Below are positions 21,459 through 34,888 of a stretch of 38,823 bases of DNA, in pieces. The notes under the pieces were generated by a model, which saw only the letters and a program-made list of their open reading frames with translations, ran no database searches and was not told where the DNA came from. Numbering within the stretch: position 1 is the first letter of the stretch; every line of letters starts with the position of its first letter. The DNA is from Cytophagales bacterium (lineage in GTDB: Bacteria; Bacteroidota; Bacteroidia; Cytophagales; Spirosomataceae), in assembly GCA_004292855.1 (NCBI GenBank), contig RDXN01000084.1:1-38823 (forward strand), given 5' to 3'. The translations under genes and the position numbers were made by a program.

Positions 21459-21611
21459 CGGCCCCGTTTTGCCGTTATTCTTTTATTTCAGACGAACCCC
21501 CCGATTAAGGGCGCGAACTCTTCCCTCGCTCCGACGAATTATGCTCGATTTTCCCCGCCCAAGCCGGTATCCTGATGATCTTCCGCCCCAACACATTTGA
21601 TTTGAAAAAGC

Positions 21612-21680
21612 GAATGGCGAGTGGCGAATAACGGTGGTTATCATTCGCTACTCGCCATTCACCTTCATCATTCGCCATTC
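21612..21680. repeat. Inverted repeat of heptad units with extra flanking copy
   Basis: The left arm GAATGGCGAGTGGCGAAT (21612-21629) pairs with ATTCGCTACTCGCCATTC (21643-21660) over 18 bp with one G-T mismatch and a 13-bp loop. A further ATTCGCCATTC follows at 21670-21680. Read as 7-mers the units are GAATGGC, GAGTGGC/GAGTAGC and GAATGAT. It lies 3 bp past the flavin-oxidase stop codon, in the spacer before the TonB receptor promoter. Confidence 0.75.
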
Positions 21681-21683
21681 ATT

Positions 21684-23027
21684 CTACGGCCTGCTATGCC
21701 AGGCGTTGAACAACCCGTCGGGGTCATAGTGTCCACGAGCAACATCGAGTCGTTGCAGGTGCGGGGCCGAGACAAACGGTGCCGTTCGTTTGTGTAGCCC
21801 CTCGTCGGCCAGTTGGATACCCGTGCTGAGGTGCGCCATTGTCTGCATATGGTCGTGTGCCCAGTTGCCGTAGCGGGGTGTTTCGGTCCCGGATTTCCAG
21901 GTGCCGTAGAGGGCCAGATAAAGGTGATCTTCCATCGAAAAAGCCATGTCAGGCCGGTTTTTGGGCGGATACCAGTTGAGCCACAGAAAGTGCGAAGGGG
22001 CCGGGGGCAGCGTGTCGGCAATGCGGTGCAGGTGCGGCATGAGGTCGTCGATACCGGCCTTCGTCCACATGTTGTCGACACCCCAGCAATGGTTATCGGG
22101 GTAGTGGGTCATGGCGTAGTTGTAGAAGGTCGCCATCGGCAATTCGCGGTAAGGTAACCGGATAAAGGCTTTTTTGCGAACCGGGCTGTTGTTCATAAAC
22201 GACAGTGAGGCTTCTAATTCATCGCGCGAGTCGGCGAAAACCGGGGCAATTACCTCCATCCCCGCCCACAAATACTGGAGCACCCGGCGGCTGGTCAGGA
22301 TCTGGAACTCCACCGTGTTGGGAACGGACGGCCCCACCTCATGTGCCCACCGAAACACCGACTCCATATGCCGGAGGCTGAATACGTGCGTGGCCATGCC
22401 CATGTGTTTGGGCTTGGGGAATAGCTGTAGGTGAAAGCAAACCACCACCCCAAAAAAACCGCCCCCTGATCCCCGAGCCGACCAATATAGATCGGGGTTT
22501 TGTGTGGGGCTGGCGTGGACCAGTTCGCCCTCGGCGGTCACAATATCCAGCCCAATCACGTTCTCGCAGGCCATACCGAGTTTGCGCCCATGCCAGCCGA
22601 AGCCACCCTGCAACAAGTAACCGCCCACGCAAACGCCCTTGCAGTGACCCGCTGGAAAAAACAATCCCTGCTCTGTGAGGGCCGTGAGCAGCGTGCTCCC
22701 GCCTACCCCCGGCCCCACGCGGGCGGTCATTGCTTCGCGGTCGACGGTATACTGATTGAACCCCCGCATGTTGATCAGGATGCTCCCTGCCCGCACGTGA
22801 TTGGCCGACCAACTATGTCCCCCGGAGCAAATACTGACCGTTTGCCCAGCCGAGCGGGCGTAACGAACGGCGTTGATCACGTCGTCGATGGTTTGCGGGC
22901 AAACCATCACGGCGGGGCGTTGGCCGGGGTTAACTTTATTGAAAAGCGTGTCCAGTACGGCCTGATCGAAACCCCGTTCGCCCTGTTTCAGGACCGTACC
23001 TGTTAATTGGAGTGAGTTGGTTATCAT
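21684..23027 (-). CDS. Berberine-bridge-type FAD-linked oxidase, 447 aa
   Basis: This is an FAD-binding oxidoreductase of the PCMH fold (FAD_binding_4, residues about 35-175) with a BBE-type C-terminus (about 400-445, LDVARGHYDPDGLFN). The flavin anchors are visible: H71 in SGGHSW and C129 in AGHCKGVCVGGYLLQGG. Their spacing suggests bicovalent FAD attachment as in berberine bridge enzyme. Such enzymes oxidise alcohols, sugars or phenolic compounds using O2. No signal peptide is visible. It is the last gene of the TetR / PhlG-like operon, separated from the hydrolase by a long inverted repeat, so it probably acts in the same (aromatic) pathway. The actual substrate is unknown. Confidence 0.85.
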   Translation of the reverse strand: MITNSLQLTGTVLKQGERGFDQAVLDTLFNKVNPGQRPAVMVCPQTIDDVINAVRYARSAGQTVSICSGGHSWSANHVRAGSILINMRGFNQYTVDREAMTARVGPGVGGSTLLTALTEQGLFFPAGHCKGVCVGGYLLQGGFGWHGRKLGMACENVIGLDIVTAEGELVHASPTQNPDLYWSARGSGGGFFGVVVCFHLQLFPKPKHMGMATHVFSLRHMESVFRWAHEVGPSVPNTVEFQILTSRRVLQYLWAGMEVIAPVFADSRDELEASLSFMNNSPVRKKAFIRLPYRELPMATFYNYAMTHYPDNHCWGVDNMWTKAGIDDLMPHLHRIADTLPPAPSHFLWLNWYPPKNRPDMAFSMEDHLYLALYGTWKSGTETPRYGNWAHDHMQTMAHLSTGIQLADEGLHKRTAPFVSAPHLQRLDVARGHYDPDGLFNAWHSRP

Positions 23028-23041
23028 GGATTTAGGTTTTT

Positions 23042-23180
23042 ACCTCACCCCCTGCCCCCTCTCCTTGTGAAGGAGAGGGGAAACTTACCAGTCTACCTTC
23101 ATAAACTCGTTCATTTTATTTAGTAGGCAGACGTTGGTGTCCCCCTCTCCTTGCGAAGGAGAGGGGGCAGGGGGTGAGGT
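23042..23180. repeat. Composite inverted repeat with two internal hairpins
   Basis: The outer arms 23042-23064 and 23158-23180 are perfect 23-bp complements (ACCTCACCCCCTGCCCCCTC...). Each arm also closes its own hairpin (CCCCTCTCCTT...AAGGAGAGGGG) at 23056-23080 and 23141-23167. The sequence resembles C-rich REP-type palindromes that occur in many bacterial genomes. It lies between hydrolase and oxidase genes that read in the same direction. Confidence 0.85.
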
Positions 23181-23182
23181 AG

Positions 23183-23989
23183 TTACTGATATTGATTATA
23201 CAATGTCGGCAGAAAACCGGCCAGATGGTTCATTTCTTCAAAGCAGTGATTGAGAAGAGCGAGTGCCTGTTGTTCGGTAGGTTTTACCAGGGCCTGCGCC
23301 ACCTGCGAGGCCATTCGCCCCAGTTGGCCCTCCGTCCGAAATTGAATATACGACCCACCCATCCAGAACCTCGACCGCATTTCGGCACCCGTTTCGGTGG
23401 CCCGCACCTGATGCACGAGCCAGCCGAAATCAACGGGCAGGTGCGAGAAACCCGTTCGGGCGCAGATATAGACCACTCGGTTTTTGTCGGCAAGTTGATC
23501 TGGCGCAAAACCAAGTTCCGTGGGGTTCACAAATCGGATCGATGCTTTTTCCAGGCTCTTGCCAATGTATTCCTGAATCAACGACGTGCGGCCAATGTAG
23601 CCGGGAAGATCGTCGCGACCGTCGGCCCACACCGCCGAGATGTGCGCTTTGGGGTGCCAGAGCTTGTACCGGTTGTCCTGACTGCCGTGCCAGCCAAACC
23701 ACCAGTCCCACATCGGGGGCGTCACACCGGGCATGTCTGTCCGAACAGCCACAGTGCAGGAATCATCGGGTAAAAACCGATAGCCGTTTTCCAACGGTAA
23801 ATAGCCCGCTTGTTGCAATAACGGCGCATCGGCCAGTGCGAAAGGCGGCTCAATTGCCGAACGAGCCTCGTTAACTAATGCCTGAATTAGCGGAGGCAAG
23901 GGCAAAATTTGGTCATTAAAAAACCGGGCGTAAGGCGTTCGTTGGTCGGCCTCCCGATAGCCCACATAGCTGGGTTTAGTTGTTCGCAT
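23183..23989 (-). CDS. DAPG hydrolase (PhlG) family protein, 268 aa
   Basis: The ATG at 23989 is used; the frame also opens at a TTG at 24001, but that adds only four residues. The core PPMWDWWFGWHGSQDNRYKLWHPKAHI (about 91-117) is the signature of the DAPG hydrolase family. In Pseudomonas, PhlG cleaves the C-C bond of 2,4-diacetylphloroglucinol with a zinc ion held by two His and two Glu. Candidate equivalents here are H112 or H101, E140 (IQEYIG), and H248/E252 (NHCFEEMNHL), a His-x3-Glu pair with the family spacing. No signal peptide is seen. Operon partners are a TetR repressor and an FAD oxidase, so an inducible aromatic-ketone breakdown or detoxification role is inferred. The natural substrate may differ from DAPG. 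Confidence 0.8.
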   Translation of the reverse strand: MRTTKPSYVGYREADQRTPYARFFNDQILPLPPLIQALVNEARSAIEPPFALADAPLLQQAGYLPLENGYRFLPDDSCTVAVRTDMPGVTPPMWDWWFGWHGSQDNRYKLWHPKAHISAVWADGRDDLPGYIGRTSLIQEYIGKSLEKASIRFVNPTELGFAPDQLADKNRVVYICARTGFSHLPVDFGWLVHQVRATETGAEMRSRFWMGGSYIQFRTEGQLGRMASQVAQALVKPTEQQALALLNHCFEEMNHLAGFLPTLYNQYQ

Positions 23990-24006
23990 AGTTGTAGACA
24001 ATTTTA

Positions 24007-24021
24007 TTCAACAAAAATGTT
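24007..24021. promoter_or_regulatory. Candidate TetR operator 1 (upstream of the hydrolase)
   Basis: TTCAACAAAAATGTT contains the dyad AACA-AAAA-TGTT and is repeated identically before the repressor gene. It lies 17 bp upstream of the hydrolase ATG, in the 52-bp gap after the TetR stop codon. Confidence 0.6.
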
Positions 24022-24041
24022 CATTACAAAGCAAAAAAATA

Positions 24042-24653
24042 TCAAACTTGAATCGTCTTCAAAATCATTGCCTTAACGTGTTCCCGGCGTTGTGCAACAA
24101 ATGCTTTTAGTTGCTCGTCGGTGCGGTTCTCTTTGGCTTTTATATAGGCCGCCCCCAAGTAAGGAATGCTGCATAACGAATAGATGTCCATCATCAGGTT
24201 TTCGCCCGAAATATGCGGAGCCACAGTCCCTTTGACTTTCTCCTGCGCCAGCAGAGCTTCCAATTGTGCCGGTAAGTTGTCCTGCGTTGAGGAAGTCATT
24301 AGCGTAACCACGTCGGGGGTTTCATTCAGAATGTTCACCACAAAACTGGGCAAGCCGGGCTTGGCTTCAAACAAATCAGAAACGGTGTCAATCAGATGCG
24401 TCAGCAGATTAGCCAGGGTCGTGTTCTCGGTCATCAGTTGGCTCATGTGCATAAACACCGCGCTGAGGGTCTGCCGCATCACCTCCTGAAACAACTCTTC
24501 TTTGGTACTATAGTAGTAATGAAGCATGGTCCGGCTAATACCGGCCTGATCAGCAATCAAGGTTGTCCGCGTTCCCTTAAATCCATTGGCATGGAAAACT
24601 TTTTCAGCCGCTGCCAATATCCGCTCTTTGGTATCGTGGTCAATTTTGGGCAT
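24042..24653 (-). CDS. TetR-family transcriptional repressor, 203 aa
   Basis: Residues about 8-55 form the TetR DNA-binding domain (KERILAAAEKVFHANGFKGTRTTLIADQAGISRTMLHYYYSTKEELF), with the HTH recognition helix at ISRTMLHYYYSTK. The remaining helices form the ligand-binding and dimer domain. It is the first gene of the operon with the PhlG-like hydrolase and flavin oxidase. Copies of the same 15-bp dyad lie 8 bp before its ATG and just before the hydrolase gene, implying autoregulation and substrate-induced release. The inducer is probably the compound degraded by the operon. Confidence 0.92.
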   Translation of the reverse strand: MPKIDHDTKERILAAAEKVFHANGFKGTRTTLIADQAGISRTMLHYYYSTKEELFQEVMRQTLSAVFMHMSQLMTENTTLANLLTHLIDTVSDLFEAKPGLPSFVVNILNETPDVVTLMTSSTQDNLPAQLEALLAQEKVKGTVAPHISGENLMMDIYSLCSIPYLGAAYIKAKENRTDEQLKAFVAQRREHVKAMILKTIQV

Positions 24654-24661
24654 CCTCTTTT

Positions 24662-24676
24662 TTCAACAAAAATGTT
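24662..24676. promoter_or_regulatory. Candidate TetR operator 2 (upstream of the repressor)
   Basis: This TTCAACAAAAATGTT is identical to the site at 24007-24021. It lies 8 bp upstream of the TetR ATG, where a bound repressor would block transcription of the whole operon. Confidence 0.62.
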
Positions 24677-24709
24677 TATAATAATCGTATACGCCAAACG
24701 GATAAGGAT

Positions 24710-25579
24710 TTATTTTCCAACTACCTTCCGAAAGCCCTGCGGACTCATGCTCTTGATTTCTCTGAACTGCCGGTTGAAATTCGAGATGTTGTTGAAACCG
24801 CTTTCGTAGGCTACCTGCGCAATGCCCCGGCTGGAGTCGAGCAGCAAGCGACAGGCATGACTTACGCGTACCTCGTTCGTAAACTGCACGATAGACTTGC
24901 GGGTGCGTTTCTTGAAAAACCGGCACACCGACGGAATCGACATGCTCAGCAGATCAGCGAGTTCGGTAAGCGTGATGGGTTGCTGGTAGTGTTGAGCAAT
25001 GTAGGTAAGCACCCGGTTTAGTTTTTCGTCTTCGCCGGGGTTGCTGCCCTCAATCGGCTCGGTCGAAAGCGGCACAAGCTCCGATTCGGGGGCCTCGGCC
25101 AACTGCATGAGCAAGTCGAGCAGGGCCAACAACCGGCGCATCCCCTTCACCGACGACAAGGCCACCAACACCGCAACCACCCGCTCGCGCACGGCCCCCG
25201 TGATCTGCAACCCTACCGCCGACCGGTGCAAAATCGTCCGCACGGGGGCCATCTCGATGCTGTTCCAGAAGTTTACGCCCAGAAAATCGGGCAGAAAATG
25301 CACCACAATCGACTCGGCTAGCAATGTTGAATTAGGTTCGAGGTATTCGGGCGCGTTCCGGTACACGTGGGGCAGGTTGGGGCCAATGAGCACCAAATCG
25401 CCCTCGGTGAAATCGCCCACGTGATTTCCGACGATGCGTTGTCCGTAGCTTTTCGTAATCAAAACTAGCTCGTACTCCGGGTGAAAGTGCCAGGGCGTCG
25501 GATAGTACGGGTATCTAAACTCATACAGTTTGAACGAGCTATCGGCGGTTGGGGCTAGTTTCTCAAGTAGAGCTTTCAT
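24710..25579 (-). CDS. AraC-family transcriptional regulator, 289 aa
   Basis: The ATG at 25579 (MKALLEKLAP) is chosen: upstream codons to 25660 run through the regulatory dyad and give no conserved sequence. Residues about 25-100 form a cupin sensor domain (WHFHPEYELVLI, GDLVLIGPNLPHVY). The C-terminal about 105 residues contain two HTH motifs (ITLTELADLLSMSIPSVCRFFKKRTRKS and IAQVAYESGFNNISNFNRQFREIKSMSPQGFR). The start codon is 109 bp from the divergent dioxygenase gene, so it probably controls that gene and itself. The ligand is unknown; AraC proteins with this cupin type usually sense sugars or small metabolites. Confidence 0.9.
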   Translation of the reverse strand: MKALLEKLAPTADSSFKLYEFRYPYYPTPWHFHPEYELVLITKSYGQRIVGNHVGDFTEGDLVLIGPNLPHVYRNAPEYLEPNSTLLAESIVVHFLPDFLGVNFWNSIEMAPVRTILHRSAVGLQITGAVRERVVAVLVALSSVKGMRRLLALLDLLMQLAEAPESELVPLSTEPIEGSNPGEDEKLNRVLTYIAQHYQQPITLTELADLLSMSIPSVCRFFKKRTRKSIVQFTNEVRVSHACRLLLDSSRGIAQVAYESGFNNISNFNRQFREIKSMSPQGFRKVVGK

Positions 25580-25594
25580 ACAAATCCAATCGGT

Positions 25595-25635
25595 TAAAAT
25601 CATACCACACTTCACCCGAAGTGTAGTAGATTTTA
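25595..25635. promoter_or_regulatory. Nested dyad in the divergent AraC / dioxygenase control region
   Basis: The inner arms ACACTTC (25607-25613) and GAAGTGT (25618-25624) are perfect complements around a 4-bp loop. The outer arms TAAAATC (25595-25601) and GATTTTA (25629-25635) are also perfect and almost symmetric (5 and 4 bp from the inner arms). The position between two divergent start codons suggests a binding site for the AraC regulator. Confidence 0.6.
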
Positions 25636-25688
25636 GGCTAAATCGGCTGTCAATTTGCAAAAGAATCTAAATCGACAACGCGACTACT

Positions 25689-26522
25689 ATGAAATTAACA
25701 TCGGCACAAATCGCTCAATATCACACCAACGGGTATCTGATTGTGAAAGAATTGTTTTCGTCCGGCGAAATTAGCCTGCTTTATGGCTCGGCAACGGAAG
25801 ACGAAGCCGTTAGTCAAAACGCCTATAATGTGGTCGACAGCACGGGCCGCAACTCGAAAATGACGCTCTGGTTTACCCCCGGCGATGATCCCTTTGGGCA
25901 GTTAGTTCGCTCAGAGCGGATGGTATCGGCAGTCGAAGATTTATTGGGTGCCGCGCAGCCCCCGCAGGGCGCGAAGGTTTGCCATTTTCACTCGAAGCTT
26001 ATGCAGAAAGAGTCGCGCGTGGGGGGTGCCTGGGAGTGGCATCAGGATTACGGCTACTGGTACAAAAACGGATTCCTGTTCCCCGAACAGATGTTGAGCG
26101 CGATGGTGGCCCTCACGCCCGCCAACGCCGAAAACGGTTGCTTGCAAGTTATCAGCGGCTCACACCGCATGGGGCGCGTGGAGCACGGGTTCGCGGGCGA
26201 GCAGGTCGGTGCTAATTTGCGGTTTGTGGAGGAATCGAAGAAATACGGCAAACACCTGTTTATGGAGCTGGAAGCAGGCGACGTGCTGTTCTTCCACAGC
26301 AACATCCTGCACCGTTCCGAGGCCAACCTCTCCGACCGGCCCCGTTGGTCGTTTATCTCGGCCTACAACCTCAGTACCAACGTACCTTTCAACGAGAAAT
26401 CAACCGCCTGTATCACCCCCCTCGAAACCGTCCCCGACGAGGCTGTTCTGCAAAGCGCGTTGTCTAGCTCCGGCATCGGCAAGGAATTTCTGAGCAAGGA
26501 AGCCGATGTGACGTTGAAGTAA
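25689..26522 (+). CDS. Phytanoyl-CoA dioxygenase (PhyH) family enzyme, 277 aa
   Basis: This is a non-haem Fe(II)/2-oxoglutarate oxygenase. The facial triad is readable: H118 and D120 in WEWHQDYGYWYKNG and H208 in SNILHRSEANLSDRPRWSF, with the following Arg residues positioned to bind 2-oxoglutarate. GCLQVISGSHRMG is the family core strand. It probably hydroxylates a small organic substrate in the cytoplasm; homologues with this WHQDYGYW sequence are often found with catabolic genes. It is regulated together with, and probably by, the divergent AraC protein. It is convergent with the MbnH gene, with a long inverted repeat between them. Confidence 0.87.
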   Translation: MKLTSAQIAQYHTNGYLIVKELFSSGEISLLYGSATEDEAVSQNAYNVVDSTGRNSKMTLWFTPGDDPFGQLVRSERMVSAVEDLLGAAQPPQGAKVCHFHSKLMQKESRVGGAWEWHQDYGYWYKNGFLFPEQMLSAMVALTPANAENGCLQVISGSHRMGRVEHGFAGEQVGANLRFVEESKKYGKHLFMELEAGDVLFFHSNILHRSEANLSDRPRWSFISAYNLSTNVPFNEKSTACITPLETVPDEAVLQSALSSSGIGKEFLSKEADVTLK

Positions 26523-26565
26523 AGATTGGCACGCGGATTAAGCGGATGGGGCGGATCTATACAGA

Positions 26566-26678
26566 TTTTTTGTCATGGCACCGGCCACCCGGCCCGAGGG
26601 ATCTAGTTTGCGAACGCACAAGTTGAACATGGCAGGAGTAGATCCCTCGGGCCGGGTGGCCGGTGCCATGACAAAAAA
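26566..26678. repeat. Perfect 40-bp inverted repeat, family A (copy 1)
   Basis: The arms 26566-26605 and 26639-26678 are perfect complements over 40 bp with a 33-bp loop. The outer end reads TTTTTTGTCAT and the inner end GAGGGATCTA. Ends and inner motif match the element at 31928-32052, while the middle differs. It lies between convergent genes. The T-run is on the 5' side and the A-run on the 3' side, so it is not a standard intrinsic terminator. Confidence 0.92.
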
Positions 26679-26695
26679 TCCGCGATCCCATTATT

Positions 26696-27772
26696 TCACT
26701 GCCGAAACCGTCGATCACTCAAGAACTCGTTATCTGTTAGCGTCCGCAGAAACGTGATCAGGTCGGTTCGCTCGGCGTTGCTTAGTGTCAGGCCGCGAAG
26801 GGCGGGGTCGGTGGTGGGTGAGCTGGCGGGGTTGGTGGCGTAGTGGTTCAGGACCTGTTCGAGGGTCCAGAAACGGCCATCGTGCATGTAAGGCGGGGTG
26901 CGCTCTACGTTCCGCAGGCTCGGCACTTTGAACTTGTAGTTGTCTTCGGGTTTGAGCGTGATGGCTCCCCGGCCCACGTCGTCGATTTTGGCGTTCGGAA
27001 TGCGGGGCAGGCCGTTGCTGCGGAAACTGTTATCCGTAAACAGGTCGGTAGCGTGGCAGGTGGCGCATTTGGCCTTGAAGGTCGTGAGGCCACGTGTTTC
27101 GGCGTTGGTGAGGGCCGGACCTTCGCCCCGCACGGCTTTGTCGTAGCGCGAGTTACTCGACACGAGCGTGAGCATAAACTGCGACAGGGCCTTCATGGTC
27201 CGCTCGGTGGTGATCTCTTTGGTCCCAAACGCAGCCTCGAACAGGGTTGGGTAGCGCGGGTCGTTGCGGAGTTTGCGCAACACATTCGCCAACGTGTCGC
27301 CCATCTCGACGGGATTTTGAATGGGAGCAATCGGCAGCAGGTCAAGGTCTTGCACACCCCCATCCCAGAAGAACTCCCGTTGCCAGGCCTTATTCTGAAT
27401 GGCGGGCACGTTACGAATACCAATCTGATCGCGGATGCCGTGACTCAGTGCATGGTCGGTGTGAGCAAATGCGGCAGTGGGTTGATGACAGAACCCACAC
27501 GACACCGTGCCGTCGTGTGAGAGCAGGCCATCGTAAAACAGGGCCTTGCCGAGCGTGAAGCCTTGTGTTGTAAGTGGATTGGCGTTAAAATTATAAACGG
27601 GGTCTGGAAAATTGGCAGGCTTCTTCCAGTCGAGCGGGGTTGTCTTGAACGTCGGGTTGATCGGGGTTGGGTCGGGATTGATGTTATCAGTGCCCGGCTT
27701 GGGCTGACACGCCCAAATGCCGCACCACAGGGCTACAACAGCCGCCAGCGTTACCCATTGTCTGTAGCTCAT
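26696..27772 (-). CDS. MbnH-like diheme cytochrome c peroxidase family lipoprotein, 358 aa
   Basis: A signal peptide ends in a lipobox (LWCGIWAC, with C22 the likely lipidated residue). Two c-type haem sites are present: CGFCH (92-96) and CATCH (236-240), spaced as in bacterial diheme peroxidases and MauG. PSLRNVERTPPYMHDGRFWTLEQVLNHY is the conserved C-terminal region. The gene overlaps the MbnP gene by 4 bp (ATGA). In MbnH/MbnP pairs the diheme enzyme oxidises a tryptophan of MbnP to kynurenine, creating a Cu(I) site; this job is inferred from family and context. A plain cytochrome c peroxidase is the alternative, but the MbnP partner makes it less likely. Confidence 0.85.
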   Translation of the reverse strand: MSYRQWVTLAAVVALWCGIWACQPKPGTDNINPDPTPINPTFKTTPLDWKKPANFPDPVYNFNANPLTTQGFTLGKALFYDGLLSHDGTVSCGFCHQPTAAFAHTDHALSHGIRDQIGIRNVPAIQNKAWQREFFWDGGVQDLDLLPIAPIQNPVEMGDTLANVLRKLRNDPRYPTLFEAAFGTKEITTERTMKALSQFMLTLVSSNSRYDKAVRGEGPALTNAETRGLTTFKAKCATCHATDLFTDNSFRSNGLPRIPNAKIDDVGRGAITLKPEDNYKFKVPSLRNVERTPPYMHDGRFWTLEQVLNHYATNPASSPTTDPALRGLTLSNAERTDLITFLRTLTDNEFLSDRRFRQ

Positions 27773-34117: not shown

Positions 34118-34888
34118 ATGGATAATCAAAAACGCACAATGAATACTGATGCCGTGATTTCCATCCGCGATTTGCGCATTTCATTTGGCGAGTACCACGT
34201 ATTGCGCGGGGTCGATCTGGATTTGTATCAGGGTGAGAATCTGGTCGTTTTGGGGCGATCAGGCACGGGCAAGTCGGTGCTTATCAAGATTTTGGTAGGC
34301 CTGCTCAAAGCCGATGCAGGCACGATTTCGGCTTTCGGGCAGCGCGTCGACACGATGTCCAAAAAAGAACTGGACGATCTACGGCTCAAAATTGGCTTCT
34401 CCTTTCAGAACAGCGCGCTCTACGACAGCATGACTGTACGCGAAAACTTGGAGTTTCCGCTTGTGCGGAACGCACGCAACCTAAGCCGGGGCGACATTGA
34501 CAGGGCCGTTGAGGAAGCTCTGGAAAACGTGGGCCTCAGCCAGACCATCAACCAGATGCCTTCCGAGCTGTCGGGCGGGCAGCGTAAGCGCATCGGTATT
34601 GCCCGTACGCTTATTCTGAAGCCCGACGTAATGCTCTACGACGAACCTACGGCGGGTTTGGACCCGATCACCTGCATCGACATCAATAACCTGATTAACG
34701 AAGTAAAAGAACGCTACAACACCTCGTCCATTGTTATTACGCACGACCTCACCTGCGCTAAAGCAGTGGGCGACCGGGTGGCGATGCTCTTCGACGGGCA
34801 GTTTCAACGCGTGGGCACGTTCGACGAGGTATTCGATACCGACGACGAGCGCGTCCAGCAATTCTATCACTACAATTTTGTTGAATAA
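34118..34888 (+). CDS. mlaF: MlaF-type ABC ATPase, 256 aa
   Basis: The ATPase motifs are Walker A GRSGTGKS (46-53), Q loop FSFQNSALYDSMTV, signature LSGGQRKRIGIA (151-162), Walker B VMLYDEP (171-177) and the switch His in VITHDL. EPTAGLDPI is typical of MlaF. It starts 3 bp after the permease stop. An alternative in-frame ATG lies at 34139. It powers lipid movement between inner and outer membranes. The C-terminal tail DDERVQQFYHYNFVE resembles the MlaF extension used for dimer contact or regulation. Confidence 0.93.
   Translation: MDNQKRTMNTDAVISIRDLRISFGEYHVLRGVDLDLYQGENLVVLGRSGTGKSVLIKILVGLLKADAGTISAFGQRVDTMSKKELDDLRLKIGFSFQNSALYDSMTVRENLEFPLVRNARNLSRGDIDRAVEEALENVGLSQTINQMPSELSGGQRKRIGIARTLILKPDVMLYDEPTAGLDPITCIDINNLINEVKERYNTSSIVITHDLTCAKAVGDRVAMLFDGQFQRVGTFDEVFDTDDERVQQFYHYNFVE

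Follow-up and report, generated by a model that had tools for sequence, protein, structure and literature searches.

A putative TetR-controlled unit of a PhlG-fold hydrolase and a flavin oxidase, with two candidate operator copies, in a Cytophagales bacterium

A TetR-family protein of a Cytophagales bacterium is likely to repress its own promoter and, through a second copy of its operator, a hydrolase–oxidase unit, with a ligand that lifts the repression and two enzymes that act sequentially on one compound. The three genes lie on the minus strand of the 38,823-nt stretch of DNA that was analyzed as a whole (hereafter the window) and encode the TetR-family regulator (24042..24653, 203 aa), a zinc hydrolase of the DAPG hydrolase family (23183..23989, 268 aa) and a berberine-bridge-enzyme-like (BBE-like) FAD oxidase (21684..23027, 447 aa). 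The inducing ligand would probably be the substrate or a relative of it, the flavin oxidase would probably turn an alcohol, enol or phenol into a beta-dicarbonyl-like form, after which the C–C bond next to a carbonyl would be cleaved by the zinc hydrolase. Whether the oxidase acts before the hydrolase, as this scheme has it, we regard as evenly balanced. The new element is the oxidase–hydrolase module with its natural fusion, whereas the regulation is of a known kind, that of PhlH and phlG.

Two copies of a 15-mer as candidate TetR operators

The 15-mer TTCAACAAAAATGTT (plus-strand letters; the genes are on the minus strand) is found at 24007-24021 and 24662-24676, at distances of 17 bp from the hydrolase ATG (23989) and 8 bp from the TetR ATG (24653), upstream in both cases, exactly where an earlier note on this DNA had placed it. 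The window holds three matches to it with at most two mismatches, against 0.10 expected in shuffles, the third lying at 34871-34885 with two mismatches. In the whole genome (6,252,438 bases), we found exactly two matches with at most one mismatch and none for the reversed control pattern, so the frequent occurrence elsewhere in the genome that the note had named as a refuting point is not seen. The broader pattern AACAWTTTTGTYGAA, with one mismatch allowed, matched six times genome-wide and its reversed control also six times. Beyond the two exact copies, therefore, nothing rises above chance, and a wider regulon, or further operators in the genome, was rejected since there was no excess over the reversed pattern.

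In 11 distinct relatives (L004-L012, L068 and L092), a homologue of the TetR protein (45-66% identity) is encoded immediately upstream of the hydrolase. Their upstream regions were probed with the window's 15-mer only, taking the best match within 150 bp, and 21 of the 22 regions (before tetR and before the hydrolase) matched with at most three mismatches, counts that are not independent because the 11 relatives share descent. The sole exception was the hydrolase side of L068 with four mismatches, which the best control regions also reached; the tetR match of this locus begins at residue 5, from which its tetR upstream region was measured. The best hydrolase-side match lies on the opposite strand in L006 and L011. 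None of the 99 control regions matched with at most three mismatches, that is, 0/50 at loci with a cNMP-domain regulator and 0/49 at other hydrolase loci, the latter being mostly from G+C-rich mycobacteria and thus an easy control, and 383 of 4400 dinucleotide shuffles did so. A chance repeat as the source of the pair was rejected by the counts in the window, the genome and the relatives. Taken together, these results uphold the proposal of two candidate operators, and sequence comparison makes it highly probable that both sites serve as operators and that TetR binds both.

The sites for the alignment and for the promoter counts were chosen with patterns fitted by eye to the relatives' sequences. 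Across 24 aligned sites (12 loci, window included), the majority letters were TATAAACAATTTTGTCGAACAAAAATGTTTA, and the best symmetry axis fell at mid-site, with a complementary fraction of 0.56 over 16 pairs. The AACA-N4-TGTT dyad that had been noticed in both copies is indeed present, but it is only part of the site: its own axis comes close in symmetry, with a fraction of 0.52, but spans only 10 pairs. Most likely, the operator is an imperfectly palindromic stretch of about 25 bp, and the 15-mer accounts for a little over half of it. The second half is better preserved at the candidate operator before the hydrolase (23997..24021, minus strand) than before tetR, where it is poorly kept; in the window, the candidate operator at tetR (24652..24676, minus strand) has a decayed second half that reaches into the start codon.

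The tetR promoter and the transcription units

A TTG lies 19-21 bp before a -7-like box at all 12 tetR sites, against 0.6 of 12 expected from shuffles that preserve single-base content only, and the spacing is 20 bp at nine of the 12. The box reads CAnnTTTG at 11 sites and TAnnTTTG in L011. In the window, the candidate tetR promoter (24667..24698, minus strand) consists of TTTG at 24695-24698, a spacing of 20 bp and the box CATTTTTG at 24667-24674, within the operator. We take a -33 TTG at such a spacing to be part of the promoter. TAnnTTTG is given as the sigma-A -7 box of Flavobacterium psychrophilum in the available part of a published study (PMC9723704). The TTG at all 12 tetR sites suggests that the operator probably sits on a Bacteroidota-type tetR promoter, covering its -7 box; viewed as an inverted repeat at the gene's own promoter, the conserved site lies on the -7-like box in 12/12 loci, with imperfect symmetry and a second half decayed at tetR. 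Given that the operator covers this box, repression at tetR would probably work by blocking RNA polymerase. A sigma-70 scan of the window gave no clear excess (4 versus 2.7 in shuffles).

The tetR–hydrolase gap contains a hairpin with a T run behind it in 10 of the 11 relatives (0.13 of 12 expected, again from shuffles of single-base content only), and no such terminator-like hairpin was found there in the window or in L011. A terminator scan of the window likewise gave no clear excess (5 versus 5.6 in shuffles). The hairpin suggests that, in most relatives, tetR and the hydrolase are probably two tandem units, each with its own site, and since the window lacks it, read-through from tetR into the hydrolase may occur there. 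A TetR repressor with one site at its own promoter and one at its target is ordinary. The view of the second site as an unusual operator inside an operon thus mostly falls away, as the two genes are separated by a hairpin in those 10 relatives, the window being without one.

The hydrolase and oxidase genes are separated by a 155-bp spacer (23028..23182, minus strand) that holds a repeat element and a potential long hairpin, whereas the gap between the two matches is 21-66 bp in the 11 relatives. A stretch of 147 nt, comprising spacer and edges, folds at -100.5 kcal/mol (z -13.2), and the repeat has 67 aligned pieces in the genome, many of which represent the arms, or the two strands, of a single palindrome. 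This hairpin element may weaken oxidase expression or uncouple the two genes in the window. Pieces of the repeat also occur in three congeners.

A hydrolase of the PhlG fold with a divergent substrate site

The hydrolase matched PF18089 with 205 bits (gathering score 22.7; residues 52-264 of the 267 scanned) and the regulator matched PF00440, the TetR_N helix-turn-helix, with 49.1 bits (cut-off 24), so both family assignments made earlier stand. Against the PhlG equivalog NF047887, the hydrolase reached 97.4 bits, far below the cut-off of 600. The zinc ligands of PhlG (H129, E160, H270 and E274) align with H116, E140, H248 and E252 (printed chain numbering shifted by 8), putative ligands that are identical in 15/15 aligned sequences, window included. 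Of the three residues that position the substrate in PhlG, Y121 is kept as Y108 and the other two are lost, with A119 in place of N132 and F208 in place of Y229; in the 15 aligned hydrolases, the N132 position holds A or V and the Y229 position F, never N or Y. H193 is kept as well. The fold model (pLDDT 74.8, pTM 0.78, moderate) matches 5xe5/5xey and 3hwp, so that phloretin hydrolase and PhlG come closest among solved folds; both are matched by sequence as well. The earlier suggestion of a phloroglucinol antibiotic as the substrate is not supported, given the equivalog score and the changes to A119 and F208, and DAPG itself is an unlikely substrate on these alignments.

A flavin oxidase with candidate bicovalent FAD positions

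The oxidase matched PF01565 (FAD_binding_4) with 112 bits, and no Pfam match to PF08031, which we take to be the C-terminal BBE domain, was found in it at E 0.001. Its nearest solved structure by sequence is EncM (4e-38). H71 (in SGGHS) and C129 (in GHC) are present in 11/11 aligned oxidases, window included, and are candidate positions for a bicovalent FAD in what would be a BBE-like enzyme (VAO/PCMH); His plus Cys is said to point to bicovalent flavin, as in BBE, in the accessible text of one report (PMC11375781). In three of 15 aligned fusion proteins (L014, L022 and L044; see below), the flavin-linking His of SGGHS is replaced by Arg and the Cys is kept. V135, V136 and T139, named as oxygen-site residues of EncM in a source available in part (PMC7662398), align with H128, C129 and V132 in the window oxidase. 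Because these residues differ, an ordinary oxidase is more likely than flavin-N5-oxide chemistry.

The hydrolase and the oxidase are constant neighbors and often fused

Loci with relatives of the hydrolase were the best 80 of 311 confirmed stretches, together with further loci from 222 genomes of the same family, and loci met twice (16 pairs) were counted once. An oxidase gene adjoins the hydrolase in 74/80 loci (best 80 of 311), which bears out the flavin oxidase as its partner; an adjacent oxidase match was missing in the other six, namely L018 (contig end), L036, L039, L050, L079 and L083. Moreover, 27 of 85 distinct rows (24 among the best 80 of 311, plus L098, L101 and L102) carry both matches in a single frame, uninterrupted by a stop codon between the two, and in some of these fused rows a frame change, a stop or a contig end interrupts or truncates the oxidase part (L016, L019, L025, the second copy in L026, and L038). 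Fused ORFs of 700-740 aa were found at 17 loci, and 15 of them were aligned and modeled, with L024 and L031 omitted; mycobacterial L075, a would-be eighteenth, was dropped as a chance frame. In L021, Pfam detects both domains in one protein. The fusions include Spirosoma, Larkinella, Runella, Emticicia, Sphingobacterium, Saprospiraceae and one Acidobacteria bin (L033).

A search for the gene order TetR–hydrolase–oxidase, which the note had recommended, found it in 11 other Bacteroidota loci, and in 12/12 loci with this TetR, window included, the hydrolase and the oxidase are separate. A cNMP-domain regulator occurs in 25 rows, 23 of them fused and the other two (L018 and L036) without an adjacent oxidase match. 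Four fused rows (L019, the first copy in L026, L029 and L033) have neither a TetR nor a cNMP regulator adjacent, and L013 and L017 have separate genes with a different regulator (cNMP-domain in L013; of the same cluster in L017). Mycobacterial loci carry the oxidase and then the hydrolase, with a 1-base overlap in L124; L043 has a TetR gene beside the pair, and L051 and L124 have a divergent gene of the IclR type. Two individual loci may be recorded here. L026 (3589-8520) carries two tandem hydrolase–oxidase fusion genes that flank a regulator of the cNMP type; the oxidase part of the second fusion gene contains a frame change. On a Sulfitobacter pontiacus plasmid (L123, 3030-4609), a 42%-identical hydrolase is divergent from a TetR gene, and no flavin oxidase is annotated within 4 kb of it.

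In the tree, for which a subset of 14 mycobacterial rows with an adjacent oxidase was retained, 26 of the rows with a fused or cNMP-regulated hydrolase, and one more alike, form a single branch of 27 with full support. The fused L033 groups with the remaining sequences, where local support is weak, which leaves room for a second fusion or a loss. Scattered over this other branch alongside mycobacteria are the TetR rows, and the place of the window itself is unsure. The alignments A2 and A3 contain two and four chosen mycobacterial sequences, respectively. The model of the fused protein (pLDDT 67.5, pTM 0.50) was too weak for the relative placement of the active sites and was set aside for that purpose; with its oxidase part only, EncM was the nearest solved fold.

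The natural fusion and the persistence of the neighbor in both gene orders are good evidence for one pathway, not for the order of the steps, and we hold it very likely that the hydrolase and the oxidase belong to one pathway. A broader proposal, which we advance tentatively and with slightly more doubt than belief, is a widespread two-step module of a covalent-flavin oxidase and a PhlG-fold zinc hydrolase, fused into about 715 aa in many Bacteroidota, that would oxidize its substrate to a beta-dicarbonyl and then cleave a C–C bond, and whose regulators swap between TetR (12/12 separate) and cNMP (23/25 fused), L013 and L017 excepted. Among titles and abstract beginnings of the open-licence literature, we found no paper on this hydrolase–oxidase pair or fusion.

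Patchy distribution of the cassette

No PF18089 match was found in three other genomes of the genus, one of which is 71% complete. Two of these congeners retain the flanking genes (76-79% protein identity) around a different set of genes, and searches there for the hydrolase, the oxidase, TetR, AraC and PhyH gave no match. In a phylum-wide sample, a close hydrolase (E 1e-20) was present in 2/395 genomes, including that of the window; within the family, any PF18089 match was found in 31/222 genomes and a strong one (E under 1e-50) in 21, again with the window's own included. Given this absence in congeners and scattered presence elsewhere, the TetR–hydrolase–oxidase set is apparently a patchy, exchangeable cassette.

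The window also carries an AraC gene (24710-25579) and a PhyH gene (25689-26522). Both were rejected as parts of the module, with no match at E 1e-3 in the best 80 of 311 loci, many of which are short or cut. The entire block from the oxidase to PhyH (window 21502-26704) is missing between the conserved flanks in the two congeners. An inverted repeat at 25603-25628, in the gap between the divergent AraC and PhyH genes, appeared terminator-like in the scan and could be an AraC operator.

Comparison with known systems

In M. tuberculosis, we take the order Rv1774-Rv1775-Rv1776c to be FAD oxidase, PhlG-like hydrolase and TetR, with Rv1774 as the neighbor of Rv1775 and the latter presumably in the same subfamily as the window hydrolase. 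This region resembles the window in its parts, with the order reversed, and related mycobacterial loci have the oxidase and then the hydrolase. No paper in the open-licence literature was found to name both Rv1774 and Rv1775, the available portions of the literature naming Rv1774 give no tested function, and the role of Rv1775 is described as unknown in the accessible part of one paper (PMC8562490). By sequence (1.6e-32) and by fold, the best solved match to the hydrolase is the phloretin hydrolase of Mycobacterium abscessus (5xe5, 5xey), with about 30% identity and with Y at the PhlG-Y229 position, where the window has F. EncM and berberine-bridge-like oxidases are the best solved match to the window oxidase, which differs from EncM in having a Cys for the second flavin link and Val in place of T139.

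The closest regulatory parallel is in DAPG-producing Pseudomonas, where phlG is kept under repression by the TetR protein PhlH and DAPG relieves it, as the consulted part of a review describes (PMC8003664). As far as that description goes, the two systems share a TetR-family repressor, an upstream operator and a Zn C–C hydrolase of PF18089; the window departs from PhlH–phlG in that a copy of the site also lies at the repressor gene itself, a flavin oxidase belongs to the target unit, and two of the three substrate-positioning residues of PhlG are missing from the hydrolase.

Alternative explanations for the sites, the substrate and the chemistry

The 15-mer could be mainly a promoter element of the -7 region rather than an operator, given that all 12 tetR sites have the [CT]AnnTTTG box with a TTG at a spacing of 19-21 bp. 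We consider this very improbable, since the conserved letters reach past the box (GTCGAAC), none of the 12 hydrolase sites has a TTG at 19-21 bp although nine retain the box, comparable matches are absent from the 50 regions at cNMP-regulator loci and the pair is unique in the genome. It appears rather unlikely that the cassette serves to detoxify antibiotics of the acylphloroglucinol type or plant acylphenols and that TetR detects these compounds in the way PhlH detects DAPG: membership in PF18089, the nearest solved folds (phloretin hydrolase and PhlG) and the kept zinc ligands, Y108 and H193 would suit such a role, but the equivalog score of 97 of 600 bits and the A119 and F208 that replace N132 and Y229 in PhlG, positions that are never N or Y in the 15 aligned sequences, would not. 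The precedents are also divided. Plant apigenin and phloretin act through PhlH as well in the PhlH–phlG system, but PhlG is called highly specific for DAPG in the same partly available review (PMC8003664); Rv1775 is argued to keep phloroglucinol-recognition residues, which speaks for this substrate class, but to be without those for phloretin and not to be a phloretin hydrolase, as far as the accessible text goes (PMC8562490); and no oxidase partner is named for the phl cluster in the portions of the literature at hand.

If the hydrolase came first, the oxidase would act on the released phenol or dione, a possible but unlikely order; in the fusions the hydrolase forms the N-terminal part, and in the Bacteroidota operons its gene comes first, but the mycobacterial gene order is the opposite, so gene order says little on the sequence of steps. 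An EncM-like route, in which the oxidase would form a flavin-N5-oxide and oxygenate a beta-diketone before C–C hydrolysis, is quite improbable in our judgment: EncM is the closest solved structure both in sequence and, with the oxidase part of a fused relative, in fold, but V135, V136 and T139 have become H128, C129 and V132, EncM T139V is reported to show oxidase activity in the accessible text (PMC7662398), and His plus Cys fits a bicovalent flavin, as the available part of the BBE source has it (PMC11375781). It is extremely improbable that the oxidase is cytokinin-oxidase-like and that its tie to the hydrolase concerns plant-hormone-like adenines. Rv1774 is listed among proteins similar to maize cytokinin oxidase in the part of a paper that was available (PMC11925245), and cytokinin oxidases are among the matches of the window oxidase (6c80, 1e-13), but these matches are far weaker than those to EncM and BBE-like oxidases, and a C–C hydrolase has no evident role in cytokinin oxidation.

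Implications

To our knowledge, few substrates are known for C–C hydrolases of the PhlG fold (DAPG and phloretin). The constant oxidase partner, fused in many genomes and present in mycobacteria, is a testable lead on these hydrolases, and the conserved operator offers a ready ligand screen, in which a ligand that releases TetR should reveal the class of the substrate. Should the two-step module prove real, the PhlG fold would gain a new class of substrate.
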